DNA from: Deltaproteobacteria bacterium
GTDB taxonomy: Bacteria > Desulfobacterota > Syntrophia > Syntrophales > UBA2192
NCBI GenBank assembly: GCA_012728915.1
Contig: JAAYEC010000075.1
Location: 16,239-80,238 of the forward strand
Reading direction: 5' to 3'
DNA length: 64,000 bases
A model generated the notes under the pieces. That model worked only from the letters and a program-made list of their open reading frames with translations. It did no database searches and was not told the origin of the DNA. Of the stretch, positions 2,996 through 10,741 are shown in pieces; the stretch's first letter is position 1, and the number at the start of each line of letters is the position of its first letter. A program made the position numbers and the translations under genes.

Positions 2996-3024
2996 ACTCT
3001 AAACGAAACCCCCGTCTCCGTCAA
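2996..3024 (-). promoter_or_regulatory. candidate sigma-70 promoter of the mla operon
   Basis: On the minus strand TTGACG (3024-3019), a 17-base spacer, then TAGAGT (3001-2996), about 45 bases before the mlaE GTG. No other promoter-like pair was seen in the 2950-3156 gap. Confidence 0.5.
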
Positions 3025-3120
3025 TCGTGAAGTCTCGGCGACCCGGGGCGCGGCGCCGGGCGGCCTTCCTGCCGGCAAGCGGCGCGGGGTGTTGGGCGGG
3101 AGGAAGAACGCGCACCAATG

Positions 3121-3146
3121 AAAAAGGCCCGGCGGTCCGGGCCTTT
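3121..3146 (-). terminator. rho-independent terminator of cimA-leuCDB
   Basis: On the minus strand a 10-bp perfect stem AAAGGCCCGG / CCGGGCCTTT with a 4-base loop runs into TTTTT, 11 bases past the leuB stop codon. Confidence 0.85.
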
Positions 3147-3156
3147 CGTCGCCTGT

Positions 3157-4227
3157 TCAGGGCTCGAGAATGTACTTGACGACGAGATCCCCCACCTCCC
3201 GCGTACCGTGACCCATCCTGCCGGCGTCCATGCTCTTCATGTCGTCGCGGATGACCTTCTTCACGGCATCGAGCAGGACCCCTGCGGCGGTCGCCTCGCC
3301 GAGGAACTCGAGCATCATCTGGACGGAGCAGATGGCCGCGAGCGGGTTGATCCGGTTCGTGCCCGCGTATTTCGGGGCCGAGCCGCCGATGGGCTCGAAG
3401 ATCGCCGTCTGGCCCGGGTCGGGATTGATGTTGCCCCCCGCGGCAATCCCCATGCCGCCCTGGATCATCGCGCCCAGGTCGGTGATGACGTCTCCGAACA
3501 TGTTGTCCGTCACGATGACGTCGAAGAACTCGGGGTTCTTCACCATCCACATGCAGATCGCGTCCACGTGGGCGTAATCGGTCTTGACGTCGGGGTATTC
3601 CTTGGCCACCTCGTAGTAGACCCTCTCCCAGAGGTTCCAGGCATAGGTGAGGACGTTGGTCTTGCCGCAGAGGGTGAGCTTCTTCTGCCGGTTTCGCCTG
3701 CGGCAGTACTCGAAGGCGTACCGGATGCAGCGCTCGACGCCCTTGCGGGTGTTCACCGACTCCTGCACGGCCACTTCCCCCGCCGTGCCCTTGCGCAGGA
3801 ACCCCCCGCTGCCGGCGTAGAGCCCCTCCGTGTTCTCCCGCACGACGACGAAGTCGATGTCCTCGGGGCCCTTGTCCTTGAGCGGCGTGTAGACCCCGGG
3901 CAGCAGGACCACGGGCCTCAGGTTGATGTAGAGGTCGAGCTCGAAGCGCATCTTCAGGAGGATCTCCGTCTCGAGGATCCCCGGCCGGACGCCCGGATGG
4001 CCGATGGCGCCGAGCAGCGAGGCGTCCATGGCGCGAAGCTCCGACAGCACGGAGTCCGGCAGAAGGTCACCCTTGGCCAGGTAGCGCTCCCCGCCGATGT
4101 CGTAACGGGTCAAATGGAATTCGATCCCCTCGGCATCGGAAATGGCCTTGAGGGCCTTGAGGGCCTCGGCGACGACTTCGGGTCCCGTGCCGTCGCCGGG
4201 CAGCACGCCGATGTTGTAGGTTTTCAT
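3157..4227 (-). CDS. leuB: 3-isopropylmalate dehydrogenase
   Basis: 356 aa isocitrate/isopropylmalate dehydrogenase. It oxidatively decarboxylates 3-isopropylmalate to 2-oxoisocaproate with NAD+ (leucine), and by the citramalate route converts 3-methylmalate to 2-oxobutyrate (isoleucine). Family features: N-terminal 'IGVLPGDGTGPEVVAEALKA', the substrate-binding 'VVVRENTEGLYAG', 'DAICMWMVKNPEFFDVIVTDN' with the metal-binding Asp residues, and 'EPIGGSAPKYAGTNRINPLA' near the cofactor site. Last gene of the operon, 42 bp after leuD and followed by a strong terminator. Some homologues with this sequence style are annotated as tartrate or homoisocitrate dehydrogenases; the operon supports LeuB. 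Confidence 0.92.
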   Translation of the reverse strand: MKTYNIGVLPGDGTGPEVVAEALKALKAISDAEGIEFHLTRYDIGGERYLAKGDLLPDSVLSELRAMDASLLGAIGHPGVRPGILETEILLKMRFELDLYINLRPVVLLPGVYTPLKDKGPEDIDFVVVRENTEGLYAGSGGFLRKGTAGEVAVQESVNTRKGVERCIRYAFEYCRRRNRQKKLTLCGKTNVLTYAWNLWERVYYEVAKEYPDVKTDYAHVDAICMWMVKNPEFFDVIVTDNMFGDVITDLGAMIQGGMGIAAGGNINPDPGQTAIFEPIGGSAPKYAGTNRINPLAAICSVQMMLEFLGEATAAGVLLDAVKKVIRDDMKSMDAGRMGHGTREVGDLVVKYILEP

Positions 4228-4269
4228 GCTCTGTCTCCCGTCTGTGTGGTTTCCTGATGGCCGTTTCGC

Positions 4270-4770
4270 TCACCGGGCGGCGAGCTTTTCCTTCCGGATG
4301 TACTCGACGAGCCCGCCCTGCCGGATGAGCTGCTCCATGAACGGCGGGATCGGGCGGGTGCTGTAGGACTTGCCGCGGGTGAGGTTCTCGATGCGGCCCG
4401 CGGCGAGATCGACGGCAAGCCGGTCGCCGTCCCGGATGTCGTCGACGGCCTCGGCCGACTCCAGGAGCGGCAGGCCGATGTTGAAGGCGTTGCGGTAAAA
4501 GATCCGGGCGAAGCTCTTCGCGATGATGAGCGGCACCCCCGCCGCTCTGATCGCAATCGGCGCGTGCTCCCGCGAGGAGCCGCACCCGAAGTTCCGTCCC
4601 CCGACGACGACATCGCCTGCGGAGACGGAGGAGGCGAACTCGGGCCGCCCGTCGGCAAAGACGTGTTTCGCCAGGGCGGCCCCGTCGGAGACGTTGCAGT
4701 ACCGCGCCGCGATGATCATGTCCGTGTCCACGTCATCGCCGAACTTCCAGGCTCTTCCTTCATATTTCAT
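4270..4770 (-). CDS. leuD: 3-isopropylmalate/citramalate dehydratase small subunit
   Basis: 166 aa, the usual length of the short prokaryotic LeuD. 'FGDDVDTDMIIAARYCN' and 'GGRNFGCGSSREHAPIAIRA' are the family hallmarks; the GSSREH loop contributes substrate-binding residues. It pairs with LeuC (4906-6165) to isomerise 2-isopropylmalate to 3-isopropylmalate, and citramalate to 3-methylmalate. The ATG is preceded by AAGGAG 6 bases upstream. Lies between leuC and leuB in the attenuator-controlled operon. Confidence 0.93.
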   Translation of the reverse strand: MKYEGRAWKFGDDVDTDMIIAARYCNVSDGAALAKHVFADGRPEFASSVSAGDVVVGGRNFGCGSSREHAPIAIRAAGVPLIIAKSFARIFYRNAFNIGLPLLESAEAVDDIRDGDRLAVDLAAGRIENLTRGKSYSTRPIPPFMEQLIRQGGLVEYIRKEKLAAR

Positions 4771-4785
4771 GGCATCTCCTTGCAG

Positions 4786-4830
4786 TCGACGCAGGCTTCA
4801 GGCATCAGGCTTCAGGATTGAAGGAAACGC
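4786..4830 (-). repeat. short degenerate direct repeats (CAGGCTT-type) between leuC and leuD
   Basis: The 135-bp leuC-leuD gap contains an imperfect local repeat: GCAGGCTTCAGGCATCAGGC followed by TTCAGGATTGAAGG. One of several 7-10-bp repeat families in gene gaps of this window (see finding). No promoter or gene was seen in the gap. Confidence 0.5.
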
Positions 4831-4905
4831 ATTGTCGGTCTGTCCTGCATCCCGAGGCCTGAATCCGGAATCCCGCCGGTGATCGCCGTTCCGCTCTCCA
4901 GCGGG

Positions 4906-6165
4906 CTATAGTTCCTCAGGGGAACCGATTCTGCCTAACACCGCCGACGCCGCCGCGACGGACGGGTTGCACAGATACACCTCGCTCTTCGGGTGTCCCA
5001 TGCGGCCCACGAAATTTCGGTTCGTCGTGGCCAGCGCCCGCTCGCCCGAGGCGAGGATCCCCATGTGTCCGCCCAGGCAGGGCCCGCAGCAGGGGGGGCC
5101 GACAACGGCCCCGGCCTCGAGGAAGGTCTCGACGAGCCCCTCCCTCGTGGCATCCTTCAGGATCGTGGGGGACGCGGGGATGACAATGAGGCGCAGACCC
5201 TTCGCCTTCTTACGGCCCTTCAGGATCTTCGCCGCGTCGCGCAGGTCCTCGAGCCAGCCGTTGGTGCAGGACCCGATAAAGACCTGGTCCAGGGCGATGC
5301 CCTTCGCCTCTGAGACGGGGCGCACGTTCGCAGGCGACGGGGGAAAGGCAACCTGGGGCTCGAGGTCCGTTGCGTCGATCGTGATGACCTTCTCGTATTT
5401 CGCGCCGGCATCGCTGGCGAGCCAGAGGGGTTCCCACCGTGCCCGACCCTTGACATAGGCCTTCGTCGTCTCGTCGGGCGCGATGATGCCGTTTTTCGCC
5501 CCCGCCTCGATCGCCATGTTCGCCATGGCGAACCGGTGCGGCATGGAGAGCTTCCCGACGACGTCCCCGCAGAACTCGAGCGCCGCGTACAGCGCCCCTT
5601 CCACGCCGATCTCGCCGATGAGCCGCAGGATCAGGTCCTTGCCGCCCACCAGCGGCCGCAGGGTCCCCGTGAACTCGACGCGGATCGTCGGAGGGACGCG
5701 CAGCCAGGTCTCGCCCGTGGCCATCACGGCGGCAAAGTCGGTGCTCCCCACGCCGGTGGAGAAGGCCCCCAGGGCCCCGTAGGCGCAGGTGTGGCTGTCG
5801 GCCCCGATGACGAGCTGACCGGGCACGACGAGCCCCTGCTCCGGAAGGAGCACGTGGCCGATGCCGGCCTCGCCGACCTCGTAGTACAGCTCGAGGTCCT
5901 GCTCGCGGGCGAACTCGCGCATGAGCTTGGCCTGCTCGGCCGAGGCGATGTCCTTGTTCGGCACGAAGTGATCCGCCACGAGGGCGACCCGCCTGCGGTC
6001 GAAGACCTTCGGGGCGCCGATCTGCCTGAACACCTGGATGGCGATGGGGGCCGTGAAATCGTGGGCGAAGGCGAGATCCACCCTGGCCTCGACGAGGTCT
6101 CCGGGGGCGACGCTCTCGAGCCCCGCATGCCGGGCAAGAATTTTCTCCGTAATCGTCATGGGCAT
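4906..6165 (-). CDS. leuC: 3-isopropylmalate/citramalate dehydratase large subunit
   Basis: 419 aa aconitase-superfamily subunit of the short archaeal/bacterial LeuC type. The [4Fe-4S] ligands are visible as 'FIGSCTNG' and 'PPCCGPCLGGHMG'. Other family motifs are 'VIGADSHTCAYGALGAFSTG' and 'FVGRMGHPKSEVYLCNPSVA'. It works with LeuD on 2-isopropylmalate and, given cimA upstream, probably also on citramalate. Start ATG 6165 has GGAG 8 bases upstream; a second in-frame ATG lies two codons later. The cytoplasmic enzyme is oxygen-sensitive by family knowledge. Confidence 0.94.
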   Translation of the reverse strand: MPMTITEKILARHAGLESVAPGDLVEARVDLAFAHDFTAPIAIQVFRQIGAPKVFDRRRVALVADHFVPNKDIASAEQAKLMREFAREQDLELYYEVGEAGIGHVLLPEQGLVVPGQLVIGADSHTCAYGALGAFSTGVGSTDFAAVMATGETWLRVPPTIRVEFTGTLRPLVGGKDLILRLIGEIGVEGALYAALEFCGDVVGKLSMPHRFAMANMAIEAGAKNGIIAPDETTKAYVKGRARWEPLWLASDAGAKYEKVITIDATDLEPQVAFPPSPANVRPVSEAKGIALDQVFIGSCTNGWLEDLRDAAKILKGRKKAKGLRLIVIPASPTILKDATREGLVETFLEAGAVVGPPCCGPCLGGHMGILASGERALATTNRNFVGRMGHPKSEVYLCNPSVAAASAVLGRIGSPEEL

Positions 6166-6385
6166 GGTTCATTCTCCGCTTGTCTGCTCGATATGGAAGC
6201 CGGAGCCTTTTCGAGAGGCTCCGGTTGCTGTGCATGAACCGCGGAACTGAGGAAAAGCGGAAGATCGGATCAAAGGCTATGGTCCTTTCCGCGCGTCCGA
6301 GGTTCTGCTCTTCCGCTCTTCACCTCCGCAAGGCGGAAATCAAGCGCCCTGTTTTCCGTGCCGGGGCGCCTCCGCTCGTCCGTCT
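6166..6385 (-). other. cimA-leuC intergenic stretch with a strong hairpin
   Basis: 220 bp with no gene. It holds a perfect 8-bp inverted repeat CCGGAGCC (6200-6207) / GGCTCCGG (6217-6224) with a 9-base loop and no T-run, so it looks like an mRNA processing or stability element, not a terminator. No separate promoter was recognised; leuC is probably transcribed from the cimA promoter. Confidence 0.45.
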
Positions 6386-7996
6386 CTAAGCGACGGCCTT
6401 CCGCGCTTCCTTTCCGTTCCGGTTCAGCCTGTCCTTGCTCAGCTTGTACTGGATGCTGTCCACCAGCGCATGCCAGCTCGCTTCGATAACGCTCTCGGAG
6501 ACCCCGATCGTGCTCCAGATATCCTTGTCGTCGCGCGACTCGATGAAGACGCGAACCTTGGCAGCCGTCCCCTCGCTGCCCTCGAGGATGCTCACCTTGA
6601 AGTCGGTCAGGTGCATTCGGGCCAGCTCGGGGTAGAACTTCACGAGGGCCTTGCGCAGGGCGTTGTCCAGGGCGTTGATCGGGCCGTTGCCCTCGGCAGC
6701 GGTGATCTCGGCATCCTTGCCCACGATGACCTTGATGAGGGCCTGCGAGCGGGAGGGCTCGTTGCCCTGCTTTTCGTTTATAACACGGAAGCACTCCAGA
6801 TAGAAGGGCTCTTCGAACTCGCCCGTGGCCTTCCGGATGATGAGGGCCAGCGACCCGTCGGCGGCCTCGAAGCTGTACCCCTCGTTCTCCATGCGCTTGA
6901 TCTCCTCGACGATGCGGCGGCTCTTCGCGTCGTCCCCGCCCAGGGAGAGGCCCATCTCGGCCGCCTTGTACTCGATGTTGCTCTTGCCGGAGAGATCCGA
7001 GACGAGGACACGCCTCTTGTTGCCCACGACCTCGGGGGAGAGATGTTCATAGGCCGCGGGGTTCTTGAGCACGGCGTGCACGTGGACGCCGCCCTTGTGA
7101 GCAAAGGCGCTGCGTCCGACGAAGGGCCGCGAGTTCAGCGGGGTGATGTTGGCGATCTCGCCGACGAAGAGCGACAGGCGGGTGAGCTCCTTCAGGGCGC
7201 CCTCGGGGAGGCAGCGTTTTGCCATCTTGAGCTCCAGGTTGGCCATGATCGGCACGAGATCCGCATTGCCGCAGCGCTCCCCGTAGCCGTTGACGGTCCC
7301 CTGGACCATGCGGACGCCCTTTTCGACGGCAGCCAGCGAGTTGGCCACGGCAAGCCCCCCGTCGTTGTGGGCGTGGATGCCCAGGCGCTCCCGCGGGATC
7401 CGGGAGGCCACCTCGTCCACGACGCGGGCGATCTCCGAGGGCAGGGTCCCGCCGTTGGTGTCGCATAGCACGACGAGGTCGGCGCCGCTCGCAAAGGCCG
7501 CCTCGATCGTCTGCAGGGCGTAGCGGGGGTTCGCCCGGTAGCCGTCGAAAAAGTGTTCGGCGTCGTAGATGACCTCCTTCTTCTTCGCCTTGAGCCAGGC
7601 CACCGTCTCGCCGATCATGGAGAGGTTCTCCTTCATGGAGATCTTGAGGATCTCCCTGACGTGCAGGTCCCAGCTCTTGCCGAAGATGGTCACCACCGGG
7701 GTCTGCGCCTCGAGCAGGGCCTGGACGTTCGGGCACTCGGCGCAGGGCGTGTGGGCCCGCCGCGTGCTGCCGAAGGCCGAGAGACGCGCGGTTGTGAACT
7801 TCACCTTCCGGGCCAGCTCGAAGAAGCGCATGTCCTTCGGGTTCGAGCCGGGCCAGCCGCCCTCGATGTAGGCAATCCCGAACTCGTCGAGTCGCCTGGC
7901 CACGCGGAGCTTCTCCTCGGCCGTGAAGTTCACCTGCTCTCCCTGGGTGCCGTCCCGCAGGGTCGTGTCGTAGATGAGAACTGTCCTGTCGTCCAT
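6386..7996 (-). CDS. cimA: (R)-citramalate synthase
   Basis: 536 aa from ATG 7996. Condenses pyruvate and acetyl-CoA to (R)-citramalate, giving 2-oxobutyrate for isoleucine without threonine. N-terminal TIM-barrel: 'IYDTTLRDGTQGEQVNFTAE' and the metal-binding 'GIHAHNDGGLAVANSLAAV'. C-terminal LeuA-type allosteric domain: 'NALDNALRKALVKFYPELAR' to 'VIEASWHALVDSIQYKL'. The frame is open upstream to 8080, but those 28 codons read through the attenuator terminator. ATG 7996 has AGGGGG 10 bases upstream and matches family N-termini. The Ile-codon leader peptide upstream supports isoleucine control and so CimA over LeuA. Confidence 0.93.
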   Translation of the reverse strand: MDDRTVLIYDTTLRDGTQGEQVNFTAEEKLRVARRLDEFGIAYIEGGWPGSNPKDMRFFELARKVKFTTARLSAFGSTRRAHTPCAECPNVQALLEAQTPVVTIFGKSWDLHVREILKISMKENLSMIGETVAWLKAKKKEVIYDAEHFFDGYRANPRYALQTIEAAFASGADLVVLCDTNGGTLPSEIARVVDEVASRIPRERLGIHAHNDGGLAVANSLAAVEKGVRMVQGTVNGYGERCGNADLVPIMANLELKMAKRCLPEGALKELTRLSLFVGEIANITPLNSRPFVGRSAFAHKGGVHVHAVLKNPAAYEHLSPEVVGNKRRVLVSDLSGKSNIEYKAAEMGLSLGGDDAKSRRIVEEIKRMENEGYSFEAADGSLALIIRKATGEFEEPFYLECFRVINEKQGNEPSRSQALIKVIVGKDAEITAAEGNGPINALDNALRKALVKFYPELARMHLTDFKVSILEGSEGTAAKVRVFIESRDDKDIWSTIGVSESVIEASWHALVDSIQYKLSKDRLNRNGKEARKAVA

Positions 7997-8014
7997 CGCC
8001 GTCTTTCCCCCTGA

Positions 8015-8053
8015 AATAAAAAATCCGTTACCAGGGAGCCTGATAACGGATTT
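8015..8053 (-). terminator. attenuator terminator upstream of cimA (hairpin 3:4)
   Basis: Minus strand: AAATCCGTTATCAGG, loop CTC, CCTGGTAACGGATTT (one T-G wobble, otherwise a perfect 15-bp stem), then TTTATTT. It lies between the leader-peptide stop codon and the cimA start codon. Confidence 0.88.
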
Positions 8054-8137
8054 CGTTGATTCTTCCGATTGTTGCATCAAGCCATCATCAGCCCCCTACG
8101 CCGCCCGGACGTATGCCGATTATGTCGATAATAATGG
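8038..8137 (-). promoter_or_regulatory. transcription attenuator alternative pairings (regions 1:2 and 2:3)
   Basis: Region 2, GGCTGATGATGG (8093-8082), includes the leader stop codon. It can pair with region 3, CCGTTATCAGGC (8049-8038), in 11 of 12 positions counting wobbles, and so break the terminator. Region 1, CCATTATTA (8137-8129), lies in the run of Ile codons and can pair with region 2 (TGATGATGG, 9 pairs). This is the classical order: a ribosome stalled at Ile codons covers region 1, frees region 2 for 2:3 pairing, and transcription continues into cimA. With charged tRNA-Ile the ribosome reaches the stop codon, covers region 2, and the 3:4 terminator forms. Pairings were read by eye. 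Confidence 0.75.
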
Positions 8138-8165
8138 GGAGGATGATGCCGATGCTGCTCTTCAT
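8088..8165 (-). CDS. isoleucine-rich attenuator leader peptide of the cimA-leuCDB operon
   Basis: 25 codons, ATG 8165 to TGA 8090-8088. The sequence runs MKSSIGIILPIIIDIIGI and ends RPGGVGG. Nine of 25 codons are Ile (5 ATC, 2 ATT and 2 ATA, ATA being rare in such a GC-rich genome), plus one Leu and one Val. A GAGAGGG site lies about 12 bases upstream. It starts about 25 bases after the predicted transcription start and its stop codon lies inside the antiterminator. As in enterobacterial ilv leaders, its translation should sense charged tRNA-Ile. The peptide itself probably has no other function. Confidence 0.85.
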   Translation of the reverse strand: MKSSIGIILPIIIDIIGIRPGGVGG

Positions 8166-8196
8166 GTTGAAATCCAACCCTCTCAAAGGTGCGGTG

Positions 8197-8225
8197 AGCA
8201 TAAAGCGTAGCGCTGTGTTTGTCAA
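8197..8225 (-). promoter_or_regulatory. sigma-70 promoter of the cimA-leuCDB operon
   Basis: Minus strand: TTGACA (8225-8220), a 17-base spacer, TATGCT (8202-8197). Start expected near 8190. It lies just downstream of the protease stop codon at 8233. Confidence 0.8.
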
Positions 8226-8232
8226 CGAAAAT

Positions 8233-10185
8233 TTACCGGGGGGGAGGCCTGTCGTCTCTCCGGATGCCGCAGAGAAGGAGAGCGGCGGCACCGAGCCACC
8301 CGAGCATCCCGACGGTCTCCGCTTTCGCGCCCAGCAGGGCATCGCTTGCATCCGCAAGGGGGGTGAGCATCGCTCTCGTGCCGGCTCGCAGGCTCTCGTC
8401 CGCGGCGATGAGATCGGCCAGAGAGGGTGAAAGCGCGTAGTAGAGCCCCACGAAGGCCCTGCCCGAGGTGGAGGGCAGCAGGTAGGCGTCGCGGAATCCC
8501 CGCAGCGCCACCACGCGCGGCTCGAGCGCCGAGCCGAAGGCCGCCGTGGCGATGAAGCACCCGCCGCCTCCCCCGCCGCCGCCGCTGCCGCCCGATACGG
8601 CCGGTCCGACGGTGGTGAAGGTCCATGCGCTCGAGGAGGCAAGCGCCACCCCCTCGCTGTCCTGCACGGCACTCGTCAGCGTCGCCGTGTAGGTCGTGCC
8701 ATAAGCGAGATTCGACAACGGGGTGAAGGTGGCCGTCAGGGTGCCCCCATTGTAGGACACGGCCCCCGCGACAGGGACGCCCCCCTGCGTGAGCGTGAAG
8801 GACGAGGTCGTGATCGACGCCGCGCTCATGGTCTCGCTGAAGGTCGCCGTGACGGACGTGTCGACAGCCACATCGGCAGCTCCAGGGGTGGGGCTTCTTC
8901 CCGAGATCGTCGGCGGCACACCGGCCTGGGTCACCGCGTAGGAGTGGCCCGCGATGGTGATGGTTCCCGTCCGCTGCTTCGCCCCCGTGTTTTCGGCAAC
9001 GCTGTAAGTGACCGTCCCGTTCCCCGTGCCGCTCGAGCCGCCGGTGATCGTGATCCAGGCGTTGTTGGAAACGGCGAGCCACGAACAGGTCCCGCCCGTT
9101 GTCACCGTCACGCTGCCCGTCGAGGCATCGGCGGAAACGGACGCATTCGCCGATTGAAGCGAATACGCACAGGAGCCCGCGAACGAGACGCCCAGCGACT
9201 GAAATCGCCTTGCCGTGGTGTACGGCGGCATGGAACAGCCATAATTCATCCTCATCTTCATGCGGAACAAGCCATTCGGCCGATCTCCGCCCGAAGTGCC
9301 CCAACTGTTGAGGACGATCCAGTAGTGTTTGGCCGGATCGGCATCGTCGTCGTTGTATCCGACAACGATGACCGCATGGCCTCCACCCTCGTCGGGTGAG
9401 TCATCGTATTCGGTTCCACAATATGTATCGGGATTCCACAATGCCATTTCGTTCTGGTTGTTCCAGAAGGTGTAAAAGGAATCCCAGGCTGCACGGTTCG
9501 GCAGATAATAGGAAAGCCATACGCCCTTTCCCTGGTTGAGGATCGCCTTGATGTTGAGTATTGCATCGTCCTGGCTGACGGAGGTCGTCGTGATCGTCTG
9601 AACAGTCAGGGTCGAGGAGAAGGCATAGTTCGTCGGGTACCGGGACACGGATCCACAGGAACCCGAACAAATGCCGTCGTTGTCGATATACGCCGCACCC
9701 GGGTTCGACCAGGGAACGGCGAAACCCTGGCCGTTATAAAAGCTCGCAAACATGGTTAGGTTTCCACCACCACATGCACAATCGCCGGTCTTGCATGAAT
9801 TCAGAAATTGGATGGATAGCCTGTCCTTGATCGAAAGTCCTGACTGGAGGGCGAGTTCCAGCAAGCCTGTCCCTGCCCATACCCAGCAGTTACCGCACAT
9901 GCCTTGGTTCCGCTCGGACGGCGTATATTGGATATTGTCCAGAAGGCTCAGATAGGCACCAAGCCTCTGATCTGTCGCCATGACGAGCCCGGCCCGGACG
10001 AGTTCGTCAATGGCCGCCCTGGGCGCATTCTCGTACTCTCGCTCCCACCTCTCCAAGGTCTTGGCATCAGGGCGCATGACGGGAGGTCGCGGCTTCGGAC
10101 TTCCCTGGGAGAACGCGCTGGACGCATAACCCACGGCAAGGGCCAGGGACAGAAGAAGAGTCAAGCCGGTTCGGGTCTTTCTCAT
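8233..10185 (-). CDS. secreted papain-like (C1A) cysteine protease with BACON, Ig-like and CFI-box C-terminal domains
   Basis: 650 aa from ATG 10185 (AGGA 8 bases upstream); ATG 10203 is an alternative. Signal peptide [20 protein letters not shown]. Papain catalytic set: '[12 protein letters not shown]' (oxyanion Gln about 94, nucleophile Cys about 100), '[13 protein letters not shown]' (His), '[13 protein letters not shown]' (Asn). The usual large propeptide inhibitor is short. A BACON-type beta domain (about 335-420, '[18 protein letters not shown]'), a bacterial Ig-like/SbsA domain (about 425-525, '[20 protein letters not shown]'), a Gly-rich linker and the '[16 protein letters not shown]' CFI-box follow, then a final hydrophobic helix. 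Probably exported and processed or anchored at the surface. Lies at the end of the export operon; substrate unknown. Confidence 0.85.
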
Positions 10186-10273
10186 GGGGTCAGTCCTGCG
10201 CATGAATTCCTTCGACGATGCGGAAACGAGGTATCCTGCCGTTCCTGCTCACCGGGCCCCGTCGAGACCTCCC

Positions 10274-10741
10274 TCAGCGGGGCGCCGGCGGGGGGAAATC
10301 GAACAGGACCGGCGTGCAGGTCCCCCGCGTGATCACCCGGAGCGTACAGCCCACCCGTGTTCCCGGCCGGATGTCAAGTTGTTCGACGTAGGCCCTGTCG
10401 GGAGGCATCTCCCGGTCCGGCAGGAGAGGAAAGGTCCTCTCGAGCGCCGATTTCCCGAGGGGCTCCTCGACGACCCCGTCGGGGATGAAGCGGAATCTTA
10501 CGTCGAATCGCCCGCTTGCGGCCGTTGAGGGGGTCACCGAGACGATCTCGGCCTGCCCGGGGTAGGACCTGTACTCGCAGGGTCCTCCTACCAGGGGTTC
10601 CCGTGCAATTTCCGAACCTGTTTTGGAGCAACCGATCCCCGGCAGTGCCGCCACCAGGAGAACAATCGCCCAAAAGCCCGCTCTCTCGAGGAAACCCGCC
10701 CGGGCGCCCGCCGCGTCCCCCCGGTCCCTTCTGCTGTCCAT
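10274..10741 (-). CDS. putative lipoprotein of unknown function
   Basis: 155 aa from ATG 10741, chosen because GGAGG lies 6 bases upstream; the open frame extends further but without a better start. A long basic N-terminus precedes a hydrophobic stretch (FWAIVLLVAALPGIGC) ending in a lipobox, so a lipid anchor at Cys is likely. The mature part (about 120 aa) is beta-rich ('GRFDVRFRFIPDGVVEEPLG') and contains three further Cys. No family recognised. It starts 19 bp after the TolC-like gene stops and precedes the protease, which suggests a periplasmic or surface accessory to the export system. Confidence 0.6.
   Translation of the reverse strand: MDSRRDRGDAAGARAGFLERAGFWAIVLLVAALPGIGCSKTGSEIAREPLVGGPCEYRSYPGQAEIVSVTPSTAASGRFDVRFRFIPDGVVEEPLGKSALERTFPLLPDREMPPDRAYVEQLDIRPGTRVGCTLRVITRGTCTPVLFDFPPPAPR

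Follow-up and report, generated by a model that had tools for sequence, protein, structure and literature searches.

The cimA-leuC-leuD-leuB operon on contig JAAYEC010000075.1 of the deltaproteobacterial assembly GCA_012728915.1 (order Syntrophales) is preceded by a leader that is, in our assessment, very probably a ribosome-mediated transcription attenuator sensing isoleucine. We analyzed a stretch of 64,000 nucleotides of this contig (positions 16,239 to 80,238), here called the window, in whose coordinates all positions without a locus handle are given; operon and leader both lie on its minus strand. As a candidate attenuator based on Ile codons, the element before the citramalate operon is real and order-wide, which is supported by conservation of the leader and covariation of its RNA pairing. 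When isoleucyl-tRNA is scarce, the ribosome would stall on the Ile codons of a leader peptide, an antiterminator would form, and RNA polymerase would be likely to read through into the citramalate operon. With ample isoleucine the ribosome would instead reach a TGA inside the 5′ strand of the antiterminator (segment 2) and mask it, leaving the partner strand (segment 3) free to form a terminator; if the leader were not translated, segment 2 would be captured by the first block of Ile codons, once more leading to termination.

Architecture of the Leader

A predicted sigma-70-type promoter (TTGACA-17-TATGCT; 8197..8225, minus strand) was recovered by a hexamer scan where an earlier note on this DNA had placed it. 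Only one promoter-like site was found in 3000-10400, 5′ of the leader, with 1.0 expected by chance, so that the site alone is not significant. It is followed by an open reading frame of 25 codons plus a stop (8088..8165, minus strand; ATG at 8165, TGA at 8090-8088) with the predicted translation MKSSIGIILPIIIDIIGIRPGGVGG, and the composition given in that note is borne out: nine of the 25 codons are Ile, all within codons 5-18, and two of these are the rare ATA. A further in-frame ATG, 5′ of this start, sits within the -10 hexamer.

The first Ile block (segment 1a; 8141..8155, minus) pairs with the segment 2 region in both the minimum-energy and the centroid fold, whereas the second (segment 1b, CATAATCGGC; 8115..8124, minus), whose common counterpart in relatives is CATAATTAGG, was matched by hand to segment 2, with which nine of its 10 positions can pair. 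Segment 2 itself (GGGGGCTGATGATGG; 8082..8096, minus) overlaps the leader stop codon, just as had been described for the antiterminator, and segment 3 (8034..8049, minus) is at once the 3′ strand of the antiterminator and the 5′ arm and loop of the terminator. This intrinsic terminator with its T-run (8018..8054, minus), seen in a hairpin scan and in covariation, lies between the leader frame and cimA; its stem (8054-8020) comprises 16 pairs, two of them G-U, around a 3-nt loop, and shortens to the 15 pairs reported earlier if the outermost G-U is not counted.

The duplex between segment 2 and the terminator arm reaches -22.7 kcal/mol, and none of 300 shuffles of the upstream stretch pairs equally well. 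Folding of the leader region 8190-7996, which had been proposed as a check, beats all 200 shuffles (z -3.07).

A chance Ile-rich frame was considered and is ruled out by two comparisons. Among the 383 ATG frames of 15-40 residues in the window, the leader is the sole one with at least five Ile and 20% Ile (counting its two nested starts), and at the Ile frequency of cimA-leuCDB (6.2%) the probability of at least nine Ile in 24 residues is about 7e-6. Its codon usage also stands apart: ATA accounts for two of nine Ile codons in the leader and for two of 248 in 11 coding sequences of the window.

Conservation across the Order

We sampled 60 genomes around the window, all from the same order, and took their cimA loci together with upstream DNA. 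The terminator was found by our own finder at 53 of the 59 cimA loci listed; left out beforehand were two loci with cut cimA genes (L125, L139) and one distant CimA copy (L131), and three loci identical with others (L004, L005, and L006 with those of genomes G007, G039, and G008) were counted once from this search onward. The finder returned nothing at L140, L159, and L035, of which L140 and L159 are nevertheless matched by the RNA model R1 described below. One locus without a leader (L116) was dropped from the alignment, the duplex test and the ribosome model, and L135 gave no leader, its contig ending there.

At least five Ile residues occur in 41 of the 43 leaders from the order, the window's among them. 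Each of the 43 uses two or more different Ile codons, so that what is kept is the peptide and not a single DNA string; beyond the Ile runs, sequence and length (16 to 35 residues) vary from leader to leader. The hexamer TTGACA lies within 110 nt 5′ of the leader in 40 of these 43, against 1.19 expected from mononucleotide shuffles. Conservation of leader codons and stems in relatives had been set as a test of the attenuator by the earlier note, and Ile codons, terminator and antiterminator are indeed kept, with covariation; at the sequence level the placement of the promoter likewise agrees with it, both in the window and in the relatives.

In a set of 80 named CimA loci, the best matches listed, an Ile-rich or Ile/Leu/Val-rich leader was accepted upstream at 12 (L004-L012, L014, L015, L035); L008-L012 and L035 are labelled Deltaproteobacteria, L014 Desulfobacterales, and L015 Desulfobacteria. 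No leader was accepted at the remaining 68 of the named loci listed, some of which have little upstream sequence and some of which carry flagged frames without a matching terminator. Flagged Ile-rich frames were not counted (L018, L023, L026, L030, L044, L045, L059, and others), mostly for lack of such a terminator; at L044 frame and hairpin overlap.

Pairing, Covariation, and the Position of the Ribosome

The helices were scored in an alignment of 44 order sequences (A1) against 500 shuffles and against slid controls; as related sequences may beat shuffles without any structure, the slid controls are the safer comparison. The terminator helix is paired in 96.5% of alignment cells (slid controls 25-49%) and the antiterminator helix in 92.9% (slid controls 24-58%), and for each of the two the percentage paired, the two-sided cells and the covariation score were reached by none of the 500 shuffles. 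Five terminator pairs have changed on both sides, a number matched by one shuffle in 500. The antiterminator duplex was equalled by at most three of 300 upstream shuffles at 43 of 52 loci, and where the terminator arm has diverged (16 loci), the antiterminator strand prefers its own arm over the mean of the common arms in 14 cases. A stem between the second Ile block and segment 2 is at most plausible; it is paired in 74.8% of cells against 17-44% in the slid controls.

To model translation of the leader, the RNA 3′ of a ribosome at each codon was folded before the last terminator strand is made; the model is thermodynamic and uses an assumed footprint. The protector stem between segments 1 and 2 forms both in the fold of the window and in this model, and the antiterminator appears once segment 1a is covered by the ribosome, as predicted if segment 1a would otherwise sequester segment 2. 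For the window, each of the nine Ile codons gives a modeled antiterminator probability of 0.987 when the ribosome stands on it; the value drops to 0.006 if no ribosome is present and to 0.000 for a ribosome at the stop, and slightly different settings give 0.95, 0.01, and 0.00, respectively. Equally high values result from stalls at other codons, from 4 to about 20; therefore, the specificity would come from which codons stall.

In 50 of the 51 leaders modeled (window included) the antiterminator probability exceeds 0.7 at some Ile codon, and in 48 it falls below 0.1 at the stop, where the ribosome is predicted to mask the antiterminator strand. Within the model, the switch by stalling at Ile codons and the reset at the stop are thus general, whereas shut-off without translation is not.

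The Operon and the Isoleucine Route

The first gene of the operon (6386..7996, minus) encodes citramalate synthase, as the earlier note had recognized (TIGR00977, 719 bits, cut-off 450). It is followed in the same orientation by genes for a leuC-type isomerase large subunit (4906..6165, minus; TIGR02083, 636 bits, cut-off 611), a leuD-type small subunit (4270..4770, minus; TIGR02087, 203 bits, above its cut-off), and a leuB-type dehydrogenase (3157..4227, minus; NF002898, 512 bits, cut-off 393). CimA, LeuC, and LeuB thus exceed NCBIfam equivalog cut-offs, whereas LeuD exceeds that of a subfamily only, its score against the LeuD equivalog TIGR02084 (223 bits) being below the cut-off of 246. Directly 3′ of leuB, AAAGGCCCGG-ACCG-CCGGGCCTTT followed by a T-run (3121..3146, minus) was read from the sequence as the likely operon terminator; it was not among the matches of the terminator scan.

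In the window genome, CimA is the sole protein matching LeuA_dimer, with no LeuA detected beside it, and threonine deaminase was not detected either, the best match to the IlvA model scoring 62.5 bits against 285 bits for a true IlvA (L225) under the same model. Apart from the LeuC of the operon, this genome shows a single LeuC match, at 34% and within a longer frame. Because CimA is present and neither LeuA nor threonine deaminase was detected, the leuCDB-type enzymes likely serve isoleucine synthesis, with which an Ile rather than a Leu leader fits; by homology, the operon would make the very amino acid that its leader reads. Among the matches listed for six relatives (G003, G005, G007, G046, G048, G057), no second LeuA-level match near 1e-40 was seen. 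The leuCDB-type genes are retained beside cimA in the window genome and in several relatives of the order lacking a LeuA-level match, for which either leucine auxotrophy or an unknown route would account.

One member of the same genus (L131, G006:C101) encodes a second CimA, 55% identical, 3′ of ilvB, ilvN, ilvC, leuA, leuC, leuD, and leuB; no Ile-rich leader was found before this copy, which was perhaps acquired from elsewhere or mis-binned. Within the operon of the window, a hairpin without a T-run (CCGGAGCC...GGCTCCGG, 6200-6224, minus) lies in the 220-nt gap between cimA and leuC and is possibly a processing or stability element. The gene upstream of the leader (8233-10203, minus) encodes a protein of 656 residues with a CFI-box C-terminal domain and, judged by eye, a cysteine-peptidase-like part and Ig-like repeats.

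Related Elements before Other Branched-Chain Operons

An RNA model (R1) built from alignment A1 matches 134 of 155 genomes of the order, among them 87 of the 92 good genomes; of the 95 genomes without a sequence in the training set (G060-G154), 83 are matched. These counts refer to matches to the element, the target gene having been looked up for a minority. The window genome has one match. We picked 20 further matches by hand, mostly away from known cimA loci, and 15 of them precede ilvB: 11 lie before ilvB-N-C-D, two before ilvB-N-C, where the available stretch ends, and two before ilvB only. Three others precede cimA, and the remaining two lie before ilvA (in G027) and before another open reading frame (L219).

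The ilvA case (L225, G027:C57, element at about 3729-3864) has an Ile-containing leader before a threonine ammonia-lyase (IlvA, 608 bits, cut-off 421), in a genome, 89% complete, with no convincing CimA (best match to the CimA query 3.1e-10). This leader has five Ile codons, four of which give a modeled antiterminator probability of 0.73-0.88; the value is 0 for a ribosome at the stop but 0.76 when no ribosome is present. At L219 (G063:C29, element 99533-99656), an Ile-rich leader stands before an unexpected target, an acyl-CoA dehydrogenase-like frame, followed by two frames resembling electron-transfer flavoprotein subunits and one resembling an M20-type amidohydrolase, all as judged by eye.

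In a sample of the phylum, R1 matches 35 of 297 genomes, 11 of them in the order. For 19 loci outside the order (L235-L253), tblastn places cimA at eight, ilvD at seven, leuA at two, and ilvB at one; none of the nine reference genes was found by tblastn at L253, which probably represents an ordinary terminator. Several further matches arise on the opposite strand, the terminator being palindromic.

The ilvBNCD operon of the window genome (G000:C6) has a Val-rich leader (MIRQILAGIPVVVVVVIVQAGTAARIL) with a terminator (L172:2212-2295), and such a Val-rich leader precedes ilvB in the six members of the genus (the window genome and five others) in which the gene was found; ilvB was not found in the seventh (77% complete). 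In the model, the ilvB leader of the window genome reaches an antiterminator probability of 0.99 with the ribosome on Val codons, but equally 0.99 with no ribosome at all; at the stop it is 0. Among the five related ilvB leaders, L255 behaves as a full switch, and the others gave mixed results or had other hairpins chosen by the script.

In the leuA operons L122, L124, and L162 of family f2, Leu-Leu replaces the second Ile-Ile. Among the named loci, which are of the other type, mixed leaders occur at the five with ilvDBNC or leuA-leuCD-ilvB downstream (L008, L010, L011, L014, and L015). Leu and Val are commoner where leuA or ilv genes lie downstream (Mann–Whitney, P = 0.002 for counts and 0.0035 for fractions; 10 vs. 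40 leaders, uncorrected for kinship, with L012 left out, L135 lacking a leader, and little downstream DNA for some of the 40). It is therefore suggestive that leader codons track operon content. The expectation that leuA-linked elements be Leu-rich was not clearly borne out, L242 and L245, outside the order, having 4 Ile, 4 Leu, and 7 Val.

Further branched-chain operons of the lineage are likely controlled by this RNA design as well, through different control codons. A stronger form of this idea, for and against which we find the case evenly balanced, is that a single modular antiterminator/terminator chassis serves these operons throughout the lineage and has been retuned by swapping leader codons to match the operon: Ile only for cimA, or for ilvA in a genome without CimA, a mixture of Ile, Leu, and Val with leuA or ilv genes, and Val for ilvBNCD in the genus of the window.

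Weighing the Attenuator against Other Explanations

Several observations weigh against attenuation as proposed here. All sequences are genomic, and many of them come from metagenome-assembled genomes. In the window a Shine–Dalgarno-like sequence found by eye, GAGAGGG, lies 12 nt 5′ of the leader ATG, a rather long spacing. Within the order, L116 has the terminator and lacks the leader, few Ile residues occur in the leaders of L126 (three) and L157 (five among 35), and the leaders of the leuA-containing operons L121 (family f2) and L160 have neither Leu nor Val. As to pairing, the two-sided changes at four antiterminator pairs were matched by 72 of 500 shuffles and its pair types by 196; because shuffles often match these two measures, the support for the antiterminator rests on its score, its cells and the slid controls. 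No covariation is seen for pairing of the second Ile block with segment 2, which 475 of 500 shuffles equal, and over all 52 loci the preference for a locus's own arm over the mean of the others' arms holds in 40. In the ribosome model, the antiterminator probability at the stop exceeds 0.1 in L129, L138, and L149, only 27 of 51 leaders are under 0.3 when no ribosome is present, and just 24 combine this with the high value at an Ile codon and the low value at the stop.

The ribosome-free results bear on a first alternative, in which a constitutive terminator trims expression and the leader frame merely couples translation to transcription without amino-acid specificity; the antiterminator probability without a ribosome is indeed at least 0.3 in 24 of the 51 modeled loci. 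Such a terminator would leave unexplained why Ile codons are specifically retained, why Leu and Val are commoner with leuA and ilv operons (on the kinship-uncorrected test above) and why the ilvBNCD leader of the window genome is rich in Val, and we regard it as most unlikely.

That the element instead senses a tRNA or a ligand, as a T-box, a riboswitch or a protein-bound leader beside an incidental Ile-rich frame, we consider slighter still. T-boxes have been reported in Geobacter, which belongs to this broad lineage too, in the part of PMC3766115 available. However, an Rfam scan of the whole window returned no family at gathering score, whether T-box, riboswitch or known leader RNA, and an incidental frame sits poorly with the Ile counts of the order leaders, with the mixing of synonymous Ile codons in every one of them and with a modeled antiterminator that depends on where the ribosome stands. 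A leader peptide conserved as a functional small protein or as a trans-acting product, for which the available text on peTrpL (PMC7298713) offers a precedent, is scarcely credible here, given that the order leaders vary in residues and length outside the Ile runs while the pairing of the surrounding RNA covaries.

Relation to Known Systems and Significance

The attenuators of the enterobacterial ilvGMEDA, ilvBN, and leu operons resemble this leader in their control codons for the pathway product, in a stop near the antiterminator and in the mutual exclusion of antiterminator and terminator. The present leader differs in its target, citramalate synthase, in a codon content dominated by Ile alone rather than mixed Ile/Leu/Val, and in having no Rfam match. 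T-box leaders, too, control amino-acid genes through termination in response to tRNA charging, but they need no leader peptide.

Leaders before ilv and leu genes of Actinobacteria, as described in the accessible portion of PMC1262725, are alike in having short frames with runs of Ile, Val, and Leu that overlap candidate terminators before ilvB; there the mode of regulation is called unclear, and replacing codons is reported to have made no difference in Streptomyces coelicolor. In the present element, in contrast, antiterminator and terminator both covary. The Leu-rich attenuator peptide of the Staphylococcus aureus ilv operon likewise controls branched-chain synthesis by leader-peptide attenuation, in another phylum and, on the text available, with other control codons and another target operon (PMC5794164).

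Leader peptides of other bacterial groups are also treated in the portions available of PMC2965389 and PMC1262725. The part of PMC3766115 at hand states that Ile/Val attenuators were then absent from Rfam and that such attenuators may have originated in the Gammaproteobacteria, in a survey that did not analyze the present lineage. Among the open-access papers listed by our searches, none describes attenuation of citramalate synthase (cimA), an earlier notice in Vitreschak 2004 (FEMS Microbiol Lett) being possible; the nearest papers, PMC13158618 and PMC11450739, describe none in the text available. The proposed mechanism is classical, and the RNA family and its target are apparently new.

If the reading given here is true, classical ribosome-mediated attenuation acts on the threonine-independent (citramalate) route to isoleucine across an order of the former Deltaproteobacteria, and the element constitutes a concrete RNA family to annotate. 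It would also represent a natural experiment, since one genome lacking a convincing CimA match has a related element before ilvA, and since leader codons tend to shift with operon content; were the common chassis to prove true as well, these leaders would form a natural series for the evolution of amino-acid specificity in attenuators. For the citramalate pathway itself, the element is predicted to be a little-known natural switch.

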